A stretch of DNA of 64,000 nucleotides from Neisseria polysaccharea ATCC 43768. GTDB taxonomy: Bacteria; Pseudomonadota; Gammaproteobacteria; Burkholderiales; Neisseriaceae. Below, piece after piece: positions 36,342 to 54,056 of this stretch. The notes below the pieces were generated by a model that worked only from the letters and a program-made list of their open reading frames with translations, ran no database searches and had not been told where the DNA came from. Where the stretch lies: contig ADBE01000029.1 of the NCBI GenBank assembly GCA_000176735.1, forward strand, positions 1-64,000, written 5' to 3'. The position numbers were made by a program, and so were the translations under genes. Within the stretch, counting starts at the first letter, position 1; each line of letters begins with the position of its first letter.

Positions 36342-37572
36342 TTATTCCGCCCGGTTTCTCTGTCGGCCCAAATCGGCGGCGGCGGTAAACAAAACGTCGG
36401 TTGAAGAATTCAACGCCGTTTCCGCCGAATCCTGAATCACGCCGATGATAAAGCCGACGGCGACCACCTGCATGGCGACATCGTTGCTGATGCCGAACAG
36501 GCTGCACGCCAGCGGAATCAGCAGCAGCGAACCGCCCGCCACGCCGGACGCGCCGCACGCGCTGACCGTCGCCACCAGGCTCAACAGCAGCGCGGTGGCA
36601 AAATCAACCTGTATGCCTTGGGTGTGCGCCGCCGCCATAGCCAAAACGGTAATCGTAATCGCCGCGCCGCCCATATTGACGGTCGCCCCCAACGGGATGG
36701 AAATCGAATAAGTGTCTTCGTGCAGCCCCAGTTTTTTCGCCAAAGCCATATTCACGGGGATATTGGCGGCGGAAGAACGGGTAAAGAAGGCATACACGCC
36801 GCTTTCGCGCAGGCAGGTAAACACCAGCGGATAAGGGTTGCGGCGGATTTTCCACCACACGATGGCGGGATTGACCGCCAGCGCGATAAACGCCATACAG
36901 CCCAACAGCACTGCAAGCAGCTTCGCATAACCCGCCAGCGCGCCGAAACCCGTCTCCGCGATTGTGGACGACACCAGCCCGAAAATGCCCAAAGGGGCAA
37001 AACGGATAATCCATTTCACGACGGTGGAAACCGCTTCCGCCAAATCGGCAACGACCTGCCGCGTAACGTCCGAACCGTGATTCCGCAACGCCGCGCCCAA
37101 AACCAAAGCCCAAGCCAAAATGCCGATATAGTTGGCATTGGCAATCGCGTTAATCGGGTTGGCGACCAGGTTCATCAGCAGCGATTTCAATACTTCCACA
37201 ATGCCGGAAGGCGGCGCGGCGGACACATCGCCCGCGCCCGCCAAAACAATGTGCGTCGGGAAAACCATACCGGCGATGACGGCGGTCAGGGCTGCGGAAA
37301 ACGTGCCGGATAAGGTAAAGGACGATAATCGGCCTGATATGCGCCTTGTTGCCTTTTTGGTGCTGTGCGATTGTGGCCGCCACCAAGATAAATACCAAAA
37401 CCGGCGCGACCGCTTTGAGCGCGCCGACAAACAGGCTGCCGAACAAGCCTGCCGCCAAGCCCAGTTGCGGGGAAACCGAACCGATTACGATGCCCAACGC
37501 CAAACCGGCGGCAATCTGCCTGACCAGGCTGACGCGGCCGATCGCATGAAATAAGGATTTGCCGAACGCCAT
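36342..37572 (-). pseudogene. sstT: Serine/threonine:sodium symporter, frameshifted
   Basis: Together the two frames encode a complete SstT of about 410 residues (dicarboxylate/amino acid:cation symporter, serine uptake). Frame one runs from [13 protein letters not shown] to PIIVLYL; the rest, from [14 protein letters not shown] to the C terminus, is in another frame. The break lies near 37306-37320, where CTTATCC stands where CTGTCC or similar is expected, one base too many. All later motifs ([36 protein letters not shown]) are intact, so the loss is recent or an assembly error. Confidence 0.85.
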
Positions 37573-39844: not shown

Positions 39845-42800
39845 ATGACCGATACCGCACCGACAGATACCGATCCGACCGAAAACGGCACGCGCAAAAT
39901 GCCGTCTGAACACCGCCCTGCCCCGCCGGCAAAAAACGCCGCCCGCTGCTGAAGCTGTCGGCGGCACTGCTGTCTGTCCTGATTTTGGCAGTATGTTTCC
40001 TCGGCTGGCTCGCCGGTACGGAATCCGGTTTGCGCTTCGGGCTGTACCAAATCCCGTCTTGGTTCGGCGTAAACATTTCCTCCCAAAACCTCAAAGGCAC
40101 GCTGCTCGACGGCTTCGACGGCGACAACTGGTCGATAGAAACCGAGGGGGCAGACCTTAAAATCAGCCGCTTCCGCTTCGCGTGGAAACCGTCCGAACTG
40201 ATGCGCCGCAGCCTGCACATTACCGAAATTTCCGCCGGCGACATCGCCATCGTTACCAAACCGACTCCGCCTAAAGAAGAACGCCCGCCTCAAGGTCTGC
40301 CCGACAGCATAGACCTGCCCTCCGCCGTCTATCTCGACCGCTTCGAGACGGGCAAAATCAGCGTAGGCAAAACTTTTGACAAACAAACCGTCTATCTCGA
40401 ACGCCTCAACGCGGCATACCGTTACGACCGCAAAGGACACCGCCTCGACCTGAAGGCCGCCGACACGCCGTGGAGCAGTTCGTCGGGGTCAGCCTCGGTC
40501 GGCTTGAAAAAACCGTTTGCCCTCGATACCGCCATTTACACCAAAGGCGGACTCGAAGGCGAAACCATACACAGTACGGCGCGGCTGAGCGGCAGCCTGA
40601 AGGATGTGCGCGCCGAACTGACGATCGACGGCGGCAATATCCGCCTCTCGGGAAAATCCGTCATCCACCCGTTTGCCGAATCATTGGATAAAACATTGGA
40701 AGAAGTGCTGGTCAAAGGGTTCAACATCAATCCGTCCGCCTTCGTGCCTTCCCTGCCCGATGCCGGACTGAATTTCGACCTGACCGCCATCCCGTCGTTT
40801 TCAGACGGCATCGCGCTGGAAGGCTCGCTCGATTTGGAAAACACCAAAGCCGGCTTTGCCGACCGCAACGGCATCCCCGTCCGTCAGGTTTTGGGCGGCT
40901 TTGTCATCCGGCAGGACGGCACGGTGCATATCGGCAATACGTCCGCCGCCCTGCTCGGACGGGGCGGCATCAGGCTGTCGGGTAAAATCGACACCGGAAA
41001 AGACATCCTCGATTTAAATATAGGCATCAACTCCGTCGGCGCGGAAGACGTACTGCAAACCGCGTTCAAAGGCAGGTTGGACGGCAGCATCGGCATCGGC
41101 GGTACGACCGCCTCGCCCAAAATCTCTTGGCAACTCGGCATCGGCACGGCGCGCACGGACGGCAGCCTCGCTATTGCAAGCGACCCCGCAAACGGACAGC
41201 GGAAACTGGTGCTCGACACCGTCAACATCGCCGCCGGGCAAGGCAGCCTGACCGCGCAAGGCTATCTCGAGCTGTTTAAAGACCGCCTGCTCAAGCTGGA
41301 CATCCGTTCCCGCGCATTCGACCCTTCGCGCATCAATCCGCAACTTCCGGCAGGCAATATCAACGGCTCAATAAACCTTGCCGGCGAACTGGCAAAAGAG
41401 CAGTTTGCGAGCAAAATGCGGTTTTCCCCCAGTATACTCAACGGCGTACCGCTTAACGGTCATGCCGACATTATTTACGAATCCCGCCACCTTCCGCGCG
41501 CCGCCGTCGATTTGCGGCTGGGACAGAACATCATCAAAACAGACGGCAGCTTTGGTAAAAAAGGCGACCGGCTCAACCTCAATATCACCGCCCCCGATTT
41601 ATCCCGCTTCGGTTTCGGACTGGAAGGCTTGTTAAACATACACGGCCATCTTTCCGGCGATTTGGACGGCGACATCCGAACCTTTGAAACCGACCTTTCC
41701 GGAACGGCGCGCAACTTACACATCGGCAAGGCGGCAGACATCCGTTCGCTCGATTTCACGCTCAAAGGTTCACCCGACACAAGCCGCCCGATACGCGCCG
41801 ACATCAAAGGCAGCCGCCTTTCGCTGTCGGGCGGGGCGACGGTTGTCGATACCGCCTACCTGACACTGGACGGCACGGGCGCGCAACACCGTATCCGTAC
41901 GCATGCCGCCATGACCTTGGACGGCAAACCGTTCAAATTTGACTTGGACGCTTCAGGCGGTATCAACAGAGAACTTACCCGATGGAAAGGCAGCATCGGC
42001 ATCCTCGACATCGGCGGCGCGTTCAACCTCAAGCTGCAAAACCGTATGACGCTCGAAGCCGGTGCGGAACGCGTGGCGGCAAGTGCGGCAAATTGGCAGG
42101 CTATGGGCGGCAGCCTCAACCTGCAACACTTTTCTTGGGATAAAAAAACCGGCATATCGGCAAAAGGCGGCGCACGCGGCCTGCATATCGCCGAGTTGCA
42201 CAATTTCTTCAAACCGCCCGTCGAACACAATCTGGTTTTAAACGGCGACTGGGATGTCGCCTACGGGCGCAACGCGCGCGGCTACCTCAATATCAGCCGG
42301 CAAAGCGGCGATGCCGTATTGCCCGGCGGGCAGGCTTTGGGTTTGAACGCATTTTCCCTGAAAACGCGCTTTCAAAACGACCGCATCGGAATCCTGCTTG
42401 ACGGCGGTGCGCGTTTCGGACGGATTAACGCCGATTTGGGCATCGGCAACGCCTTCGGCGGCAATATGGCAAATGCACCGCTTGGCGGCAGGATTACCGC
42501 CTCCCTTCCCGACTTGGGCGCATTGAAGCCCTTTCTGCCCGCCGCCGCGCAAAACATTACCGGCAGCCTGAATGCCGCCGCGCAAATCGGCGGACGGATA
42601 GGCTCTCCGTCCGTCAATGCCGCCGTCAACGGCAGCAGCAACTATGGGAAAATCAACGGCAACATCACCGTCGGGCAAAGCCGCTCCTTCGATACCGCGC
42701 CTTTGGGCGGCAGGCTCAATCTGACCGTTGCCGATGCCGAAGCATTCCGCAACTTCCTGCCCGTCGGACAAACCGTCAAAGGCAGCCTGAATGCCGCCGT

Positions 42801-49794: not shown

Positions 49795-50040
49795 TTAAGT
49801 GATTTATTTGATAAATTATCATCGAGTAGTCCCGTTTTGTTATTGTCGGGATTAACATTTGAAAGCATACCGTCCAAGGCGGGAATTATCTCACAACACC
49901 GCCGTTATCCAAATATCCCGCCTTTTTCCCTTTCTTTCCGTCAAAATACTTTCTTTTTATATTCATTAACTTGTTAAATTGTTGGCTGCCGAGTGTCAGT
50001 TTTTCCGACAAAATCCGTCTAATGGGGTATCAACAGAACC
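49795..50040 (-). pseudogene. Degenerate remnants upstream of the immunity gene
   Basis: Two short minus-strand frames without starts of their own: one ends KGKKAGYLDNGGVVR then stop at about 49887, the next ends GLLDDNLSNKSLKK then stop 10 bases before the immunity ATG. The composition and reading frames look like the tail of a toxin gene broken by deletion. No intact gene can be drawn in these 250 bp. Confidence 0.4.
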
Positions 50041-50055
50041 AAAATAGGAATACTT

Positions 50056-50505
50056 ATGAAAATCGGAACAACTTGGCAGACGGCATCCGCTATGCTGGTT
50101 TTGCGTCTGTTTGCCGCATATGAATTTTTGGAATCGGGTTTGCAAAAATGGAACGGGGAGAATTGGTTTTCCGAAATCAACGATCAATTCCCATTCCCGT
50201 TCAACTTGCTGCCGGATGCGTTAAACTGGAATCTTGCGATGTATGCGGAGCTTTTGCTGCCCGTACTGTTGCTTTTGGGTTTGGCAACGCGCCTGTCGGC
50301 ATTGGGGCTGATGGTCGTTACCGCCGTCGCCTGGGCTGCGGTTCACGCCGGTTCGGGTTACAATGTCTGCGACAACGGTTATAAAATGGCTTTAATTTAT
50401 ATCGTGGTATTAATCCCGCTGCTTTTGCAGGGTGCGGGCGGATGGTCGCTGGATACGCTGCTGAAAAAACGGTTTTGCCCCCGATGCCGTCTGAAACAAG
50501 ATTGA
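50056..50505 (+). CDS. DoxX-family membrane protein, first gene of the sigma-E operon
   Basis: 149 residues with four membrane helices (LVLRLFAAYEFLESGLQKW, YAELLLPVLLLLGLATRLSALG, MVVTAVAWAAVHAG, MALIYIVVLIPLLLQG) and a cytoplasmic CPRCR tail whose codons include a DUS. DoxX (HvfX-type) proteins accompany DUF692 peptide-modification operons. Together with the next five genes it forms the operon linked to the ECF sigma factor in N. meningitidis. Role in redox or peptide export is unproven. Confidence 0.85.
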   Translation: MKIGTTWQTASAMLVLRLFAAYEFLESGLQKWNGENWFSEINDQFPFPFNLLPDALNWNLAMYAELLLPVLLLLGLATRLSALGLMVVTAVAWAAVHAGSGYNVCDNGYKMALIYIVVLIPLLLQGAGGWSLDTLLKKRFCPRCRLKQD

Positions 50506-50578
50506 TTCAGTCGTGGAATCTGACTTTAAACATTCCAACCTTATCTCGTTAACTTGATATTCTGAAAAGGAAATAGAA

Positions 50579-50959
50579 ATGAACAAAAACATTGCTGCCG
50601 CACTCGCCGGTGCTTTATCCCTGTCTTTGGCCGCCGGCGCCGTTGCCGCCGACAAACCGGCAAGCAACGCAACAGGCGTTCAAAAATCCGCCCAAGGCTC
50701 TTGCGGCGCGTCCAAATCTGCCGAAGGTTCGTGCGGCGCGGCTGCTTCTAAAGCAGGCGAAGGCAAATGCGGCGAGGGCAAATGCGGTGCAACCGTAAAA
50801 AAGCCCACAAACACACCAAAGCATCTAAAGCCAAAGCCAAATCTGCCGAAGGCAAATGCGGCGAAGGCAAATGCGGTTCTAAATAATCCGCTCCCTCAAA
50901 CCAAGCCGCGTTTTTCAGTAAAATGCGGCTTTTTTAACGGCAAACAAAGATTTTTTTAA
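50579..50959 (+). CDS. Cys-rich EGKCG-repeat peptide precursor (HvfA/bufferin-like), frameshifted
   Basis: Signal peptide ending AGAVAA, then repeated cores: QGSCG, EGSCG, EGKCG, EGKCG. Such DUF2282-like precursors have their cysteines converted by the DUF692 enzyme to oxazolone/thioamide or thiooxazole groups and bind copper. After GATVKK the frame changes: the A tract at 50797-50802 has six As. With seven, the protein reads KKAHKHTKASKAKAKSAEGK and ends in two more EGKCG units and SK, stopping at 50886. As given it acquires 50 unrelated residues. RBS AAGGAA. Confidence 0.82.
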   Translation: MNKNIAAALAGALSLSLAAGAVAADKPASNATGVQKSAQGSCGASKSAEGSCGAAASKAGEGKCGEGKCGATVKKPTNTPKHLKPKPNLPKANAAKANAVLNNPLPQTKPRFSVKCGFFNGKQRFF

Positions 50960-51001
50960 CAAGCACATTATTCTTTTGTGCCATCCGAACCGGGTAAAAA
51001 T

Positions 51002-51844
51002 ATGATTCAACACGCAGGCTTGGGCTACCGCCGCGACTTGGCGGAAGACTTTCTCTCCCTTTCCGAAAACAGCCCGATATGCTTTATCGAAGCCGCCCCC
51101 GAAAACTGGCTGAAAATGGGCGGCAGGGCGCGCAAACAGTTTGACCGCGTGGCGGAACGGCTGCCGCTGGCGTTGCACGGATTGTCTATGTCGCTAGGCG
51201 GACAAGCCCCGCTGGATACCAATTTGATAGACGGCATCAAAGAAATGATGTGCCGTTATGACTGCACGTTTTTCTCCGATCATTTGAGCTACTGCCACGA
51301 CGGCGGTCATCTTTACGATTTGTTGCCGCTGCCTTTCACTGAAGAAATGGTGCATCATACGGCGCGGCGTATCCGCGAAGTGCAAGACCGTTTGGGCTGC
51401 CGCATCGCCGTGGAAAACACATCCTACTACCTGCATTCTCCGCTTGCCGAGATGAACGAGGTCGAGTTCCTCAACGCAGTTGCCCGTGAAGCCGACTGCG
51501 GTATTCATTTGGATGTGAACAATATTTACGTCAACGCTGTCAATCACGGCCTGTTGTCGCCTGAAGCCTTTTTAGAAAATGTGGATGCAGAGCGCGTGTG
51601 CTATATCCATATTGCCGGACATGACGTGGAAACGCCGGAATTGTTGATTGATACACATGGCGCGGCAGTTTTGCCGACTGTTTGGGACTTGCTCGAACTT
51701 GCCTATGCCAAGCTGCCGACGATTCCGCCCACCCTGTTGGAACGCGATTTCAATTTTCCGCCTTTTGCCGAACTCGAAGCCGAAGTCGCCAAAATCGCCG
51801 ACTATCAAACGCGTGCCGGAAAGGAATGCCGCCGTGCAGCCTGA
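51002..51844 (+). CDS. DUF692 multinuclear non-heme iron oxygenase (HvfB/BufB-type)
   Basis: 280 residues, TIM-barrel. Metal-binding residues of the family appear in order: [63 protein letters not shown] enzymes use two or three iron ions to oxidise cysteines of a precursor peptide; here the substrate should be the EGKCG peptide encoded just upstream. Start [10 protein letters not shown] at 51002, overlapping the next gene by 11 bp. Confidence 0.92.
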
Positions 51845-52580
51845 AACCTCCGCCCAATACCAGCACCGCTTTGCCCAAGCCATACGCGGGGGAGAAGCCG
51901 CAGACGGCCTGCCGCAAGACCGCCTGAACGTCTATATCCGCCTGATACGCAACAATATCCACAGCTTTATCGACCGCTGCTATACCGAAACACTGCAATA
52001 CTTTGACAGCGAAGAATGGGGCCGTCTGAAAGAAGGTTTCGTCCGCGACGCGCACGCCCAAACGCCCTATTTTCAAGAAATCCCCGGCGAGTTCCTACAA
52101 TATTGCCAAAGCCTGCCGCTTTCAGACGGCATTTTGGCACTGATGAATTTTGAATATACCCAATTGCTGGCAGAAGTTGCACAAATTCCGGATATTCCCG
52201 ACATTCATTATTCAAATCACAGCAAATACACGCCCTCCCCTGCGGCCTTTATCCGGCAATATCGATACGATGTTACCGATGATTTGCAGGAAGCGGAAAC
52301 AGCCTTGTTAATATGGCGAAACGCCGAAGATGATGTGATGTACCAAACATTGGACGGCTTCGATATGATGCTGCTGGAGATAATGGGGGCTTCCGCGCTT
52401 TCGTTTGACACCCTTACCCATACCCTTGTCGAATTTATGCCCGAAGCCGATAATTGGAAAAATATTTTGCTTGGGAAATGGTCAGGCTGGATTGAACAAA
52501 GAATTATCATCCCCTCCCTGTCCGCCATATCCGAAAATATGGAAGGCAATTCCCCGGGCCAAAACCATCTATCCGCATAA
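51834..52580 (+). CDS. DUF2063 peptide-modification partner (HvfC/BufC-type)
   Basis: About 248 residues from GTG 51834 with AAGGAA upstream. Helical N-terminal DUF2063 domain ([33 protein letters not shown]) followed by a second domain. In this system it binds the leader or signal part of the precursor and presents it to the DUF692 enzyme. Overlap with that gene means tight coupling. Confidence 0.88.
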
Positions 52581-52601
52581 AATTATCTTACTCCCGATAC
52601 T

Positions 52602-53189
52602 ATGCCGCTACCCGACCTGACCGATGCCGAATTAATGGAGTCGCGCAAACTGCTTCTGCATTTTGCGCGGCTTCAATTGCCCGACCATCCTGATTTGGCT
52701 GAAGATTTAGTACAGGAAACATTGCTGTCCGCATACAGCGCAGGCGACAGTTTTCAAGGCAGGGCGCTTGTCAACAGCTGGCTTTTTGCCATATTGAAAA
52801 ACAAAATTATTGACGCATTACGTCAAATCGGGAGGCAGAGGAAAGTCTTTACCGCACTGGATGACGAGCTGCTGGATGAAGCATTTGAAAGCCATTTTTC
52901 CCAAAACGGGCATTGGACGCCGGAAGGGCAGCCGCAACATTGGAACACTCCGGAAAAATCATTAAACAACAACGAATTTCAAAAAATTCTGCAAAGCTGC
53001 CTATACAACCTGCCTGAAAACACCGCACGGGTATTTACCCTGAAGGAAATACTCGGTTTTTCATCCGACGAAATACAACAAATGTGCGGTATCAGCACGG
53101 CCAACTACCACACCATTATGCACCGCGCCCGAGAATCATTGCGCCAATGCCTGCAAATCAAATGGTTCAACCAAAAAAACCCGAAGTAA
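52602..53189 (+). CDS. rpoE: ECF sigma factor (sigma-E type)
   Basis: 195 residues. Region 2 (HPDLAEDLVQETLLSAYS, RALVNSWLFAILKNKIIDALR) recognises -10; region 4 (LPENTARVFTLKEILGFSSDEIQQMCGIS, HRARESLRQCL) recognises -35. Between them is an extended linker. It corresponds to the single ECF sigma factor of N. meningitidis, whose regulon includes this operon and msrAB. Directly followed by its anti-sigma gene, 5 bp away. Confidence 0.93.
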   Translation: MPLPDLTDAELMESRKLLLHFARLQLPDHPDLAEDLVQETLLSAYSAGDSFQGRALVNSWLFAILKNKIIDALRQIGRQRKVFTALDDELLDEAFESHFSQNGHWTPEGQPQHWNTPEKSLNNNEFQKILQSCLYNLPENTARVFTLKEILGFSSDEIQQMCGISTANYHTIMHRARESLRQCLQIKWFNQKNPK

Positions 53190-53194
53190 ACGTT

Positions 53195-53374
53195 ATGAAA
53201 AAATGCCGCGATATTGCCCTGCTTCTTTCCAAACATCAGGAACGGGAAACCACCCCGGGCGAGAAGATTTCCATATACACACACCTGCTGTTCTGTCCGT
53301 ATTGCCGGGAATATAAAAGACAACTTCAAACCATCAAAATATCACTGGCAAAAACAACCCAAACTTCAAAATAA
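53195..53374 (+). CDS. mseR: Zinc-binding anti-sigma factor MseR
   Basis: 59 residues from ATG 53195. Contains the ZAS motif H-x3-C-x2-C (THLLFCPYCREY), the zinc site that senses oxidants in this family. It would sequester the sigma factor encoded upstream until oxidation. A longer in-frame upstream reading lies within rpoE and is not used. Confidence 0.85.
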   Translation: MKKCRDIALLLSKHQERETTPGEKISIYTHLLFCPYCREYKRQLQTIKISLAKTTQTSK

Positions 53375-53403: not shown

Positions 53404-53633
53404 AAGCTGACGGAAACAAATCAAACCGATTTACTGTTATCGGCAGTTCATCCATAATACACACTTCAAAAGCAGCATATTTCCCCATACGGAATGTATA
53501 AATACGCAAAATACGAAGGCTGCATCAATTTGCCATATTTGCTTTATTTGCCTTATTTCACAGACGGCACTACCCCTCCCGCCCAACCCGTTCCTTTCTG
53601 AATGAGCGGATTTCAATGATTAAGGAAACCTTA

Positions 53634-54056
53634 ATGCGCCCAATCTTCCTATCTTTCGTTTTACTCCCTATATTACTAACCGCCTGCAGTACACCGGACA
53701 AGTCTGCCAGATGGGAAAATATCGGCACGATCTCAAACGGCAATATCCATACATATATCAATAAAGACAGCGTGAGAAAAAACGGAAATCTGATGATTTT
53801 CCAAGATAAAAAAGTTGTTACCAATCTAAAACAAGAACATTTTGCCAACACCCCCGCATACAAGACTGCCATTGCCGAGTGGGAAATCCATTGCAACAAC
53901 AAAACATACCGCTTAAGTTCGCTACAGTTGTTTGATACAAAAAACACGGAAATTTCCACACAAAGCTACACAGCCTCTTCCCTCCGCCCGATGAGCATCC
54001 TGTCCGGGACATTAACTGAAAAACAATATGAAACCGTATGCGGAAAAAAACTCTGA
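53634..54056 (+). CDS. Adhesin-E-like lipoprotein
   Basis: 140 residues from MRPIFLSFV with lipobox LLTAC. The mature part has W-E-N-I-G-x-I-S and YINKDSV near the N terminus and a late Cys pair (EIHCNN, TVCGKK), resembling the surface-adhesin protein E fold first described in Haemophilus. Binding partner unknown. The ATG at 53616 six codons earlier is an alternative. Confidence 0.68.
   Translation: MRPIFLSFVLLPILLTACSTPDKSARWENIGTISNGNIHTYINKDSVRKNGNLMIFQDKKVVTNLKQEHFANTPAYKTAIAEWEIHCNNKTYRLSSLQLFDTKNTEISTQSYTASSLRPMSILSGTLTEKQYETVCGKKL

Follow-up and report, generated by a model that had tools for sequence, protein, structure and literature searches.

The closest described relatives of the operon treated here are the published hvf operons, whose products are known as oxazolin, gonophorin or 'captophorin'. 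In N. meningitidis, co-transcription of six genes, sigma-E autoregulation, control of msrAB and the action of MseR as anti-sigma factor were reported in 2010 (PMC2893595), and the neisserial sigma-E regulon has been followed by RNA-seq (PMC3240639). The homologous H. influenzae operon is induced by hypochlorite (HOCl) through RpoE2 (2021, PMC7907618), and the cofactor of its HvfB enzyme is a mixed-valent diiron centre (PMC13419390). Gonophorin, the product of N. gonorrhoeae ngoABC made in E. coli, carries 5-thiooxazoles (2025, PMC12668002), N. dentiae NedA is a lipidated oxazolin (PMC12636315), and the Buf_EGKCG/oxazolin class as a whole has been defined (PMC12452194). Here, an operon of this type is described from a stretch of 64,000 nt (the window) of Neisseria polysaccharea ATCC 43768 (contig ADBE01000029.1), whose genome is a draft of 139 contigs and 2.03 Mb. 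There is every indication that it is orthologous to the published hvf operons, being their Neisseria version, and works as those do. The operon and most of its interpretation are already known: the operon itself, sigma-E and MseR since 2010, the Haemophilus HOCl response since 2021 and gonophorin since 2025, so that the novelty seen in it by the first-pass annotation does not hold. The statement that its product has not been purified from Neisseria may still be literally true because gonophorin was made in E. coli, but the gonococcal product has already been characterised in print (PMC12668002).

Six genes lie on the + strand at 50056-53374. They are hvfX, encoding a DoxX-like membrane protein of 149 aa (50056..50505; PF07681, 80.7 bits; NF050144, 138.8 bits, cut-off 80); a cysteine-rich HvfA-type precursor with a broken reading frame (50579..50959); hvfB, encoding a DUF692 enzyme of 280 aa, that is, a multinuclear non-heme iron-dependent oxidative enzyme (MNIO) (51002..51844; PF05114, 325.2 bits; NF003818, 373.5 bits, cut-off 360); hvfC, encoding a partner protein of 248 aa with DUF2063 and a domain of the RiPP recognition element (RRE) type (51834..52580; NF050145, 159.1 bits, cut-off 142); rpoE/ecf, encoding an extracytoplasmic function (ECF) sigma factor of 195 aa (52602..53189; NF009184, 388.8 bits, cut-off 276); and mseR, encoding a zinc-type anti-sigma factor of 59 aa (53195..53374; NF052368, 71.8 bits, cut-off 50). 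The corresponding NCBIfam names are HvfX, HvfA-type, HvfB, HvfC, RNA polymerase sigma factor and anti-sigma factor, and the curated cut-offs are passed by every protein of the operon except in the case of the whole-protein model for the precursor. Gene content, order and coordinates are thus as first annotated, as are the DUF692 enzyme with its DUF2063 partner and the class, namely an Hvf/bufferin-type MNIO system for a ribosomally synthesized and post-translationally modified peptide (RiPP) under an ECF sigma/anti-sigma pair.

The operon is preceded on the + strand by a sigma-E promoter (49995..50023), which matches the neisserial consensus GTMAGBWTT-N12/13-CGTCTAAH (PMC2893595) exactly, with a -35 element GTMAGBWTT, a 12-nt spacer and a -10 element CGTCTAAH. 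Across the whole 2.03-Mb genome this consensus is matched exactly at two sites, one before the operon and the other just upstream of an open reading frame (ORF) with an MsrA domain (msrAB); these are both of the sigma-E targets known in print. A control with the reversed pattern found no match in the genome. The predicted MseR retains Cys4, His30, Cys34 and Cys37, i.e. Cys4 plus an H-x3-C-x2-C motif as counted in the translation; Cys4, His30 and Cys37 are the residues named for the meningococcal protein (PMC2893595).

By eye, the precursor has a signal-like N-terminus, and no lipobox is visible in it. Its open frame contains four Gly-[Lys/Ser]-Cys-Gly cores inside 40 residues, while 20 shuffled versions of the entire window (trinucleotide shuffling) gave no more than one core apiece, so the core density of the precursor is not due to chance. 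It is matched by the core-domain model NF050137 at 27.9 bits, above the cut-off of 19.5. The earlier description of repeated Gly-Cys cores behind a signal sequence stands for the signal-like start and for these four cores. It does not stand for the remainder, as the frame breaks and the last two cores are out of frame.

Published work on the orthologs has established co-transcription, sigma-E control, anti-sigma activity, 5-thiooxazoles and copper binding in E. coli, and by analogy the operon of the window would work as follows. On release of the ECF sigma factor by MseR, RNA polymerase would transcribe hvfX-hvfA-hvfB-hvfC-rpoE-mseR from the sigma-E promoter, in an autoregulated manner, and msrAB would be transcribed from the second such promoter. 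HvfB, assisted by HvfC, would use its mixed-valent diiron centre to oxidise the cysteines of the Gly-x-Cys-Gly cores to 5-thiooxazoles. The modified peptide would then be exported and bind Cu(I), presumably limiting copper damage to the envelope under oxidant attack by the host, with MsrAB repairing oxidised methionine. Of this scheme, we infer peptide export, copper protection, the physiological role, the inducing signal and the role of HvfX. As to the signal, gonococcal NGO1947/1948 are reported to be raised by H2O2, and exposure to neutrophils raises gonococcal NGO1944, 1945, 1946 and 1948 (2024, PMC11257400). Among the open-access literature matches listed, no work was presented as a test of copper or hypochlorite as inducer of the operon in Neisseria.

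Several observations weigh against assigning this structure and function to the operon. In the window the reading frame of the precursor is broken, and the precursor scores 31.9 bits with the whole-HvfA equivalog NF050188, below the cut-off of 95. The intact gonococcal precursor, which reaches 43.1 bits with the core model, also misses the whole-HvfA cut-off (48.5 bits), and the failure with NF050188 is therefore no bar to membership. Of the 46 genomes of the genus, 12 give no match to hvfB; restricting the set to the 41 with a completeness of 90 % or more and a contamination of 5 % or less leaves 8 without one. Meningococcal rpoE and msrAB showed no response to H2O2, diamide, singlet oxygen or SDS-EDTA (PMC2893595), and deletion of ecf left the survival of gonococci exposed to neutrophils unimpaired relative to the parent (PMC11257400); a copper and hypochlorite defence in Neisseria, as proposed in the first-pass annotation, is accordingly unproven. 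Gonophorin with added copper formed a complex mixture, in which it held 1-2 Cu and which precipitated, and the physiological role is left open by its authors (PMC12668002). A Microbulbifer EGKCG cluster is described as not induced by copper, and its authors hesitate on copper protection (PMC12538549). In gonococci, copper sensitivity rises on loss of Csp, a further periplasmic protein that stores copper (PMC12510493), so copper buffering there need not depend on the hvf operon.

The frame of the precursor breaks after the fourth core at a short A-run (50797..50803, + strand), which reads as an in-phase A_AAA_AAG heptamer. Beyond it, the open frame continues for 51 unrelated residues to 50959, while the last two of the six cores, both EGKCG, lie in the -1 frame, which ends at 50886. 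Thus, the normal six-core product would not be made from the sequence as written without ribosomal slippage. The likeliest cause is an error of sequencing or assembly, with the organism itself probably making a normal six-core precursor. The break falls within a homopolymer run of a draft assembly, the remaining five genes of the operon have open frames, and six cores are found in a single frame in all seven close-relative loci, each aligning with one gap opening (four genomes: N. gonorrhoeae, N. viridiae, N. bergeri and the complete genome G020). In addition, a transporter gene of 406 aa at 36357-37572 on the - strand has a second single-base frame break near 37309 and is intact in both relatives that cover it. 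We take this split gene to be SstT. However, such breaks are few: an ORF-based scan flagged two places in the window, this one and a signal near 39936, in an ORF that by eye is probably not a gene. The scan drew on 290 reference ORFs, some of which are spurious (203 had a match), and on relative stretches that align to 52,540 (G039), 16,184 (G020) and 29,193 (G015) of the 64,000 bases. Its sensitivity is limited and it undercounts, because the break in the precursor itself went unflagged.

Second in likelihood, though doubtful, is a true lesion at the level of the strain or species, with the precursor decaying beside an idle modification system. The frame is broken as read, and the dozen genus genomes in which hvfB finds no match suggest that some species may have lost, or may simply lack, the system. 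However, no further decay is apparent, hvfX, hvfB, hvfC, rpoE and mseR all being open, and the last two cores with the residues before them are identical in the -1 frame to those of the gonococcal precursor. It is very improbable that the break is both genuine and used, with ribosomes slipping by -1 at A_AAA_AAG so that a short four-core and a full six-core copper peptide are made from one gene. The heptamer has the sequence of the dnaX-type slip site, and it occurs three times in phase over all ORFs of at least 120 codons (spurious ORFs included; 72,978 nt in total). The RNA downstream of it folds with a z of -1.53, 13 of 200 shuffles folding at least as well, and inspection by eye of the 25 bases upstream showed no well-placed Shine-Dalgarno-like stimulator. 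Slippage is retained only as a minor reading because these signals are weak. What the window adds to the published picture is chiefly a warning: the precursor of this genome is unsuitable as a reference sequence.

The assignment of the enzyme and its partner agrees with known structures. HvfB matches PDB 3bww (E 2.6e-116), the structure of the H. somni MNIO (PMC13419390). Its residues N174, D217 and H219 are the iron-site counterparts of N175, D242 and H244 of H. influenzae HvfB, on a numbering offset inferred from the alignment, and replacement of the latter inactivates the H. influenzae HvfBC fusion (PMC13419390). By a count of alignment columns, all three residues are identical in 99 of 99 loci, a set that includes that of the window and some genomes twice and from which the partial L068 is excluded; this supersedes an earlier regular-expression count, which demanded exact spellings of the iron-site motifs and found them in 24 of 30. 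HvfC is near-identical to PDB 3dee (E 1.3e-160), which is gonococcal NGO1945, since reassigned as an MNIO partner (PMC12452194). A reading of the operon as one for a bufferin proper (BufA/BufB), and not as an Hvf-type system, is rejected as scarcely credible: the enzyme is of the same MNIO superfamily and is matched by the MNIO_BufB model at 257.8 bits, but this is below the BufB cut-off of 310 while the HvfB cut-off is passed, and the precursor has EGKCG cores and no DUF2282 or other Pfam match. Equally remote, and likewise rejected, is the proposal made alongside the 3DEE structure that the DUF2063 protein is a transcription regulator (PMC2954202), since its score is above the HvfC equivalog cut-off, HvfB needs HvfC in H. 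influenzae (PMC13419390), and NGO1945 has been reassigned as noted. Methanobactin was also considered as a class and rejected, the MbnB-class model TIGR04159 giving 50.9 bits against a cut-off of 325.

Identity to other Neisseria varies along the operon. Across 51106-52155, covering hvfB and the start of hvfC, the loci of N. sicca-labelled L005 and of genomes G014 (L076) and G009 (L080) are 87-97 % identical to the window per 150 nt. Over hvfX and the precursor the identity to the same three loci is 53-85 %, and in the later part of hvfC it is 65-75 % where alignable; L080 is again close in rpoE (94-95 %). Synonymous divergence (dS) from L002 and L004 is 0.27 and 0.43 for hvfB, and 0.05-0.13 for hvfX, hvfC and rpoE. 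This mosaic pattern suggests that the enzyme gene has been exchanged between Neisseria lineages. Neither the broken precursor nor the mosaic hvfB was met in print, though no literature search was aimed at either.

A match to hvfB is found in 34 of the 46 Neisseria genomes, including that of the window, and in 32 of these 34 rpoE follows it downstream within 3 kb and on the same strand. The exceptions are G007, where the two genes are 12.8 kb apart, and G008, where the distance is 940 kb. G001 and G022 have an rpoE match (E < 1e-30, 43 % identity) and are without hvfB. At the N. viridiae locus (L003:5400-6460), the distance between hvfB and rpoE exceeds that in the window by about 0.84 kb; the added DNA includes a run of 153 codons without a stop, and the match to hvfC ends prematurely. 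Two HvfA-type precursors are close together in at least nine loci (L007, L090-L094, L096, L098 and L100), one of each pair with a lipobox-like signal by regular expression and the other without; this is a lower bound because eight of the nine are among the 30 genus loci with short flanks (L072-L101). Outside the genus, a Bacteroidetes metagenome-assembled genome (L060:2651-3383) has rpoE-like (34 %) and weak MseR-like (25 %) matches upstream of an EGKCG-type precursor and hvfB, and the link to an ECF factor may thus extend beyond Pseudomonadota. The next gene downstream of the operon in the window (53616-54056) encodes a small lipoprotein-like protein that matches Surface-adhesin protein E (PF16747, 45.9 bits).

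The gene content points to a commensal as the probable source of the genome. It has an Amylosucrase_C-like domain, as do 20 of the 46 genus genomes, and this domain is not found in the gonococcal genome G015 or the complete genome G020. Among five genomes tested, only G020 gave a Poly_export match; that of the window gave none. The placing of the operon in a pathogen, as first annotated, is unsupported for this genome. Through this operon, human-associated Neisseria connect a copper ligand made by post-translational modification with a sigma factor of envelope stress, a link that is already published, and the locus is a tractable place for testing the trigger and the role of the peptide in commensals.

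Among known systems, the N. gonorrhoeae ngo cluster that makes gonophorin has the same genes, and identity to the locus of DSM 9188 (L002) is 98 % for HvfB, 94 % for HvfC, 99 % for HvfX and 98 % for RpoE. However, the gonococcal precursor has six cores in frame, while that of the window is broken after four. The operon shares gene order, promoter consensus and the MseR Cys/His positions with N. meningitidis NMB2140-NMB2145 (PMC2893595); it differs from the case studied there in that the chemistry was not known in 2010, and in that the genome is of another, probably commensal, species. With the H. influenzae hvfABCX/oxazolin system (PMC13419390, PMC7907618) it has in common HvfA, HvfB, HvfC and HvfX, EGKCG cores and control by an ECF sigma factor together with msrAB. 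H. influenzae HvfB is about 66 % identical to that of the window, the H. influenzae precursor has three paired cores, and rpoE2 is elsewhere, an rpoE match being absent from the fetched flanks of the H. influenzae locus (L017). N. dentiae NedA, from the same genus, also has EGKCG cores and the maturases NedB and NedC, but unlike the precursor of the window carries a lipoprotein signal (PMC12636315). Bufferins share the MNIO, DUF2063 and DoxX core genes, and bind copper; they differ in having other precursor families, and the sigma genes of Buf1 clusters are paired with NrsF anti-sigma factors rather than with a zinc anti-sigma factor of the MseR type (PMC12452194).

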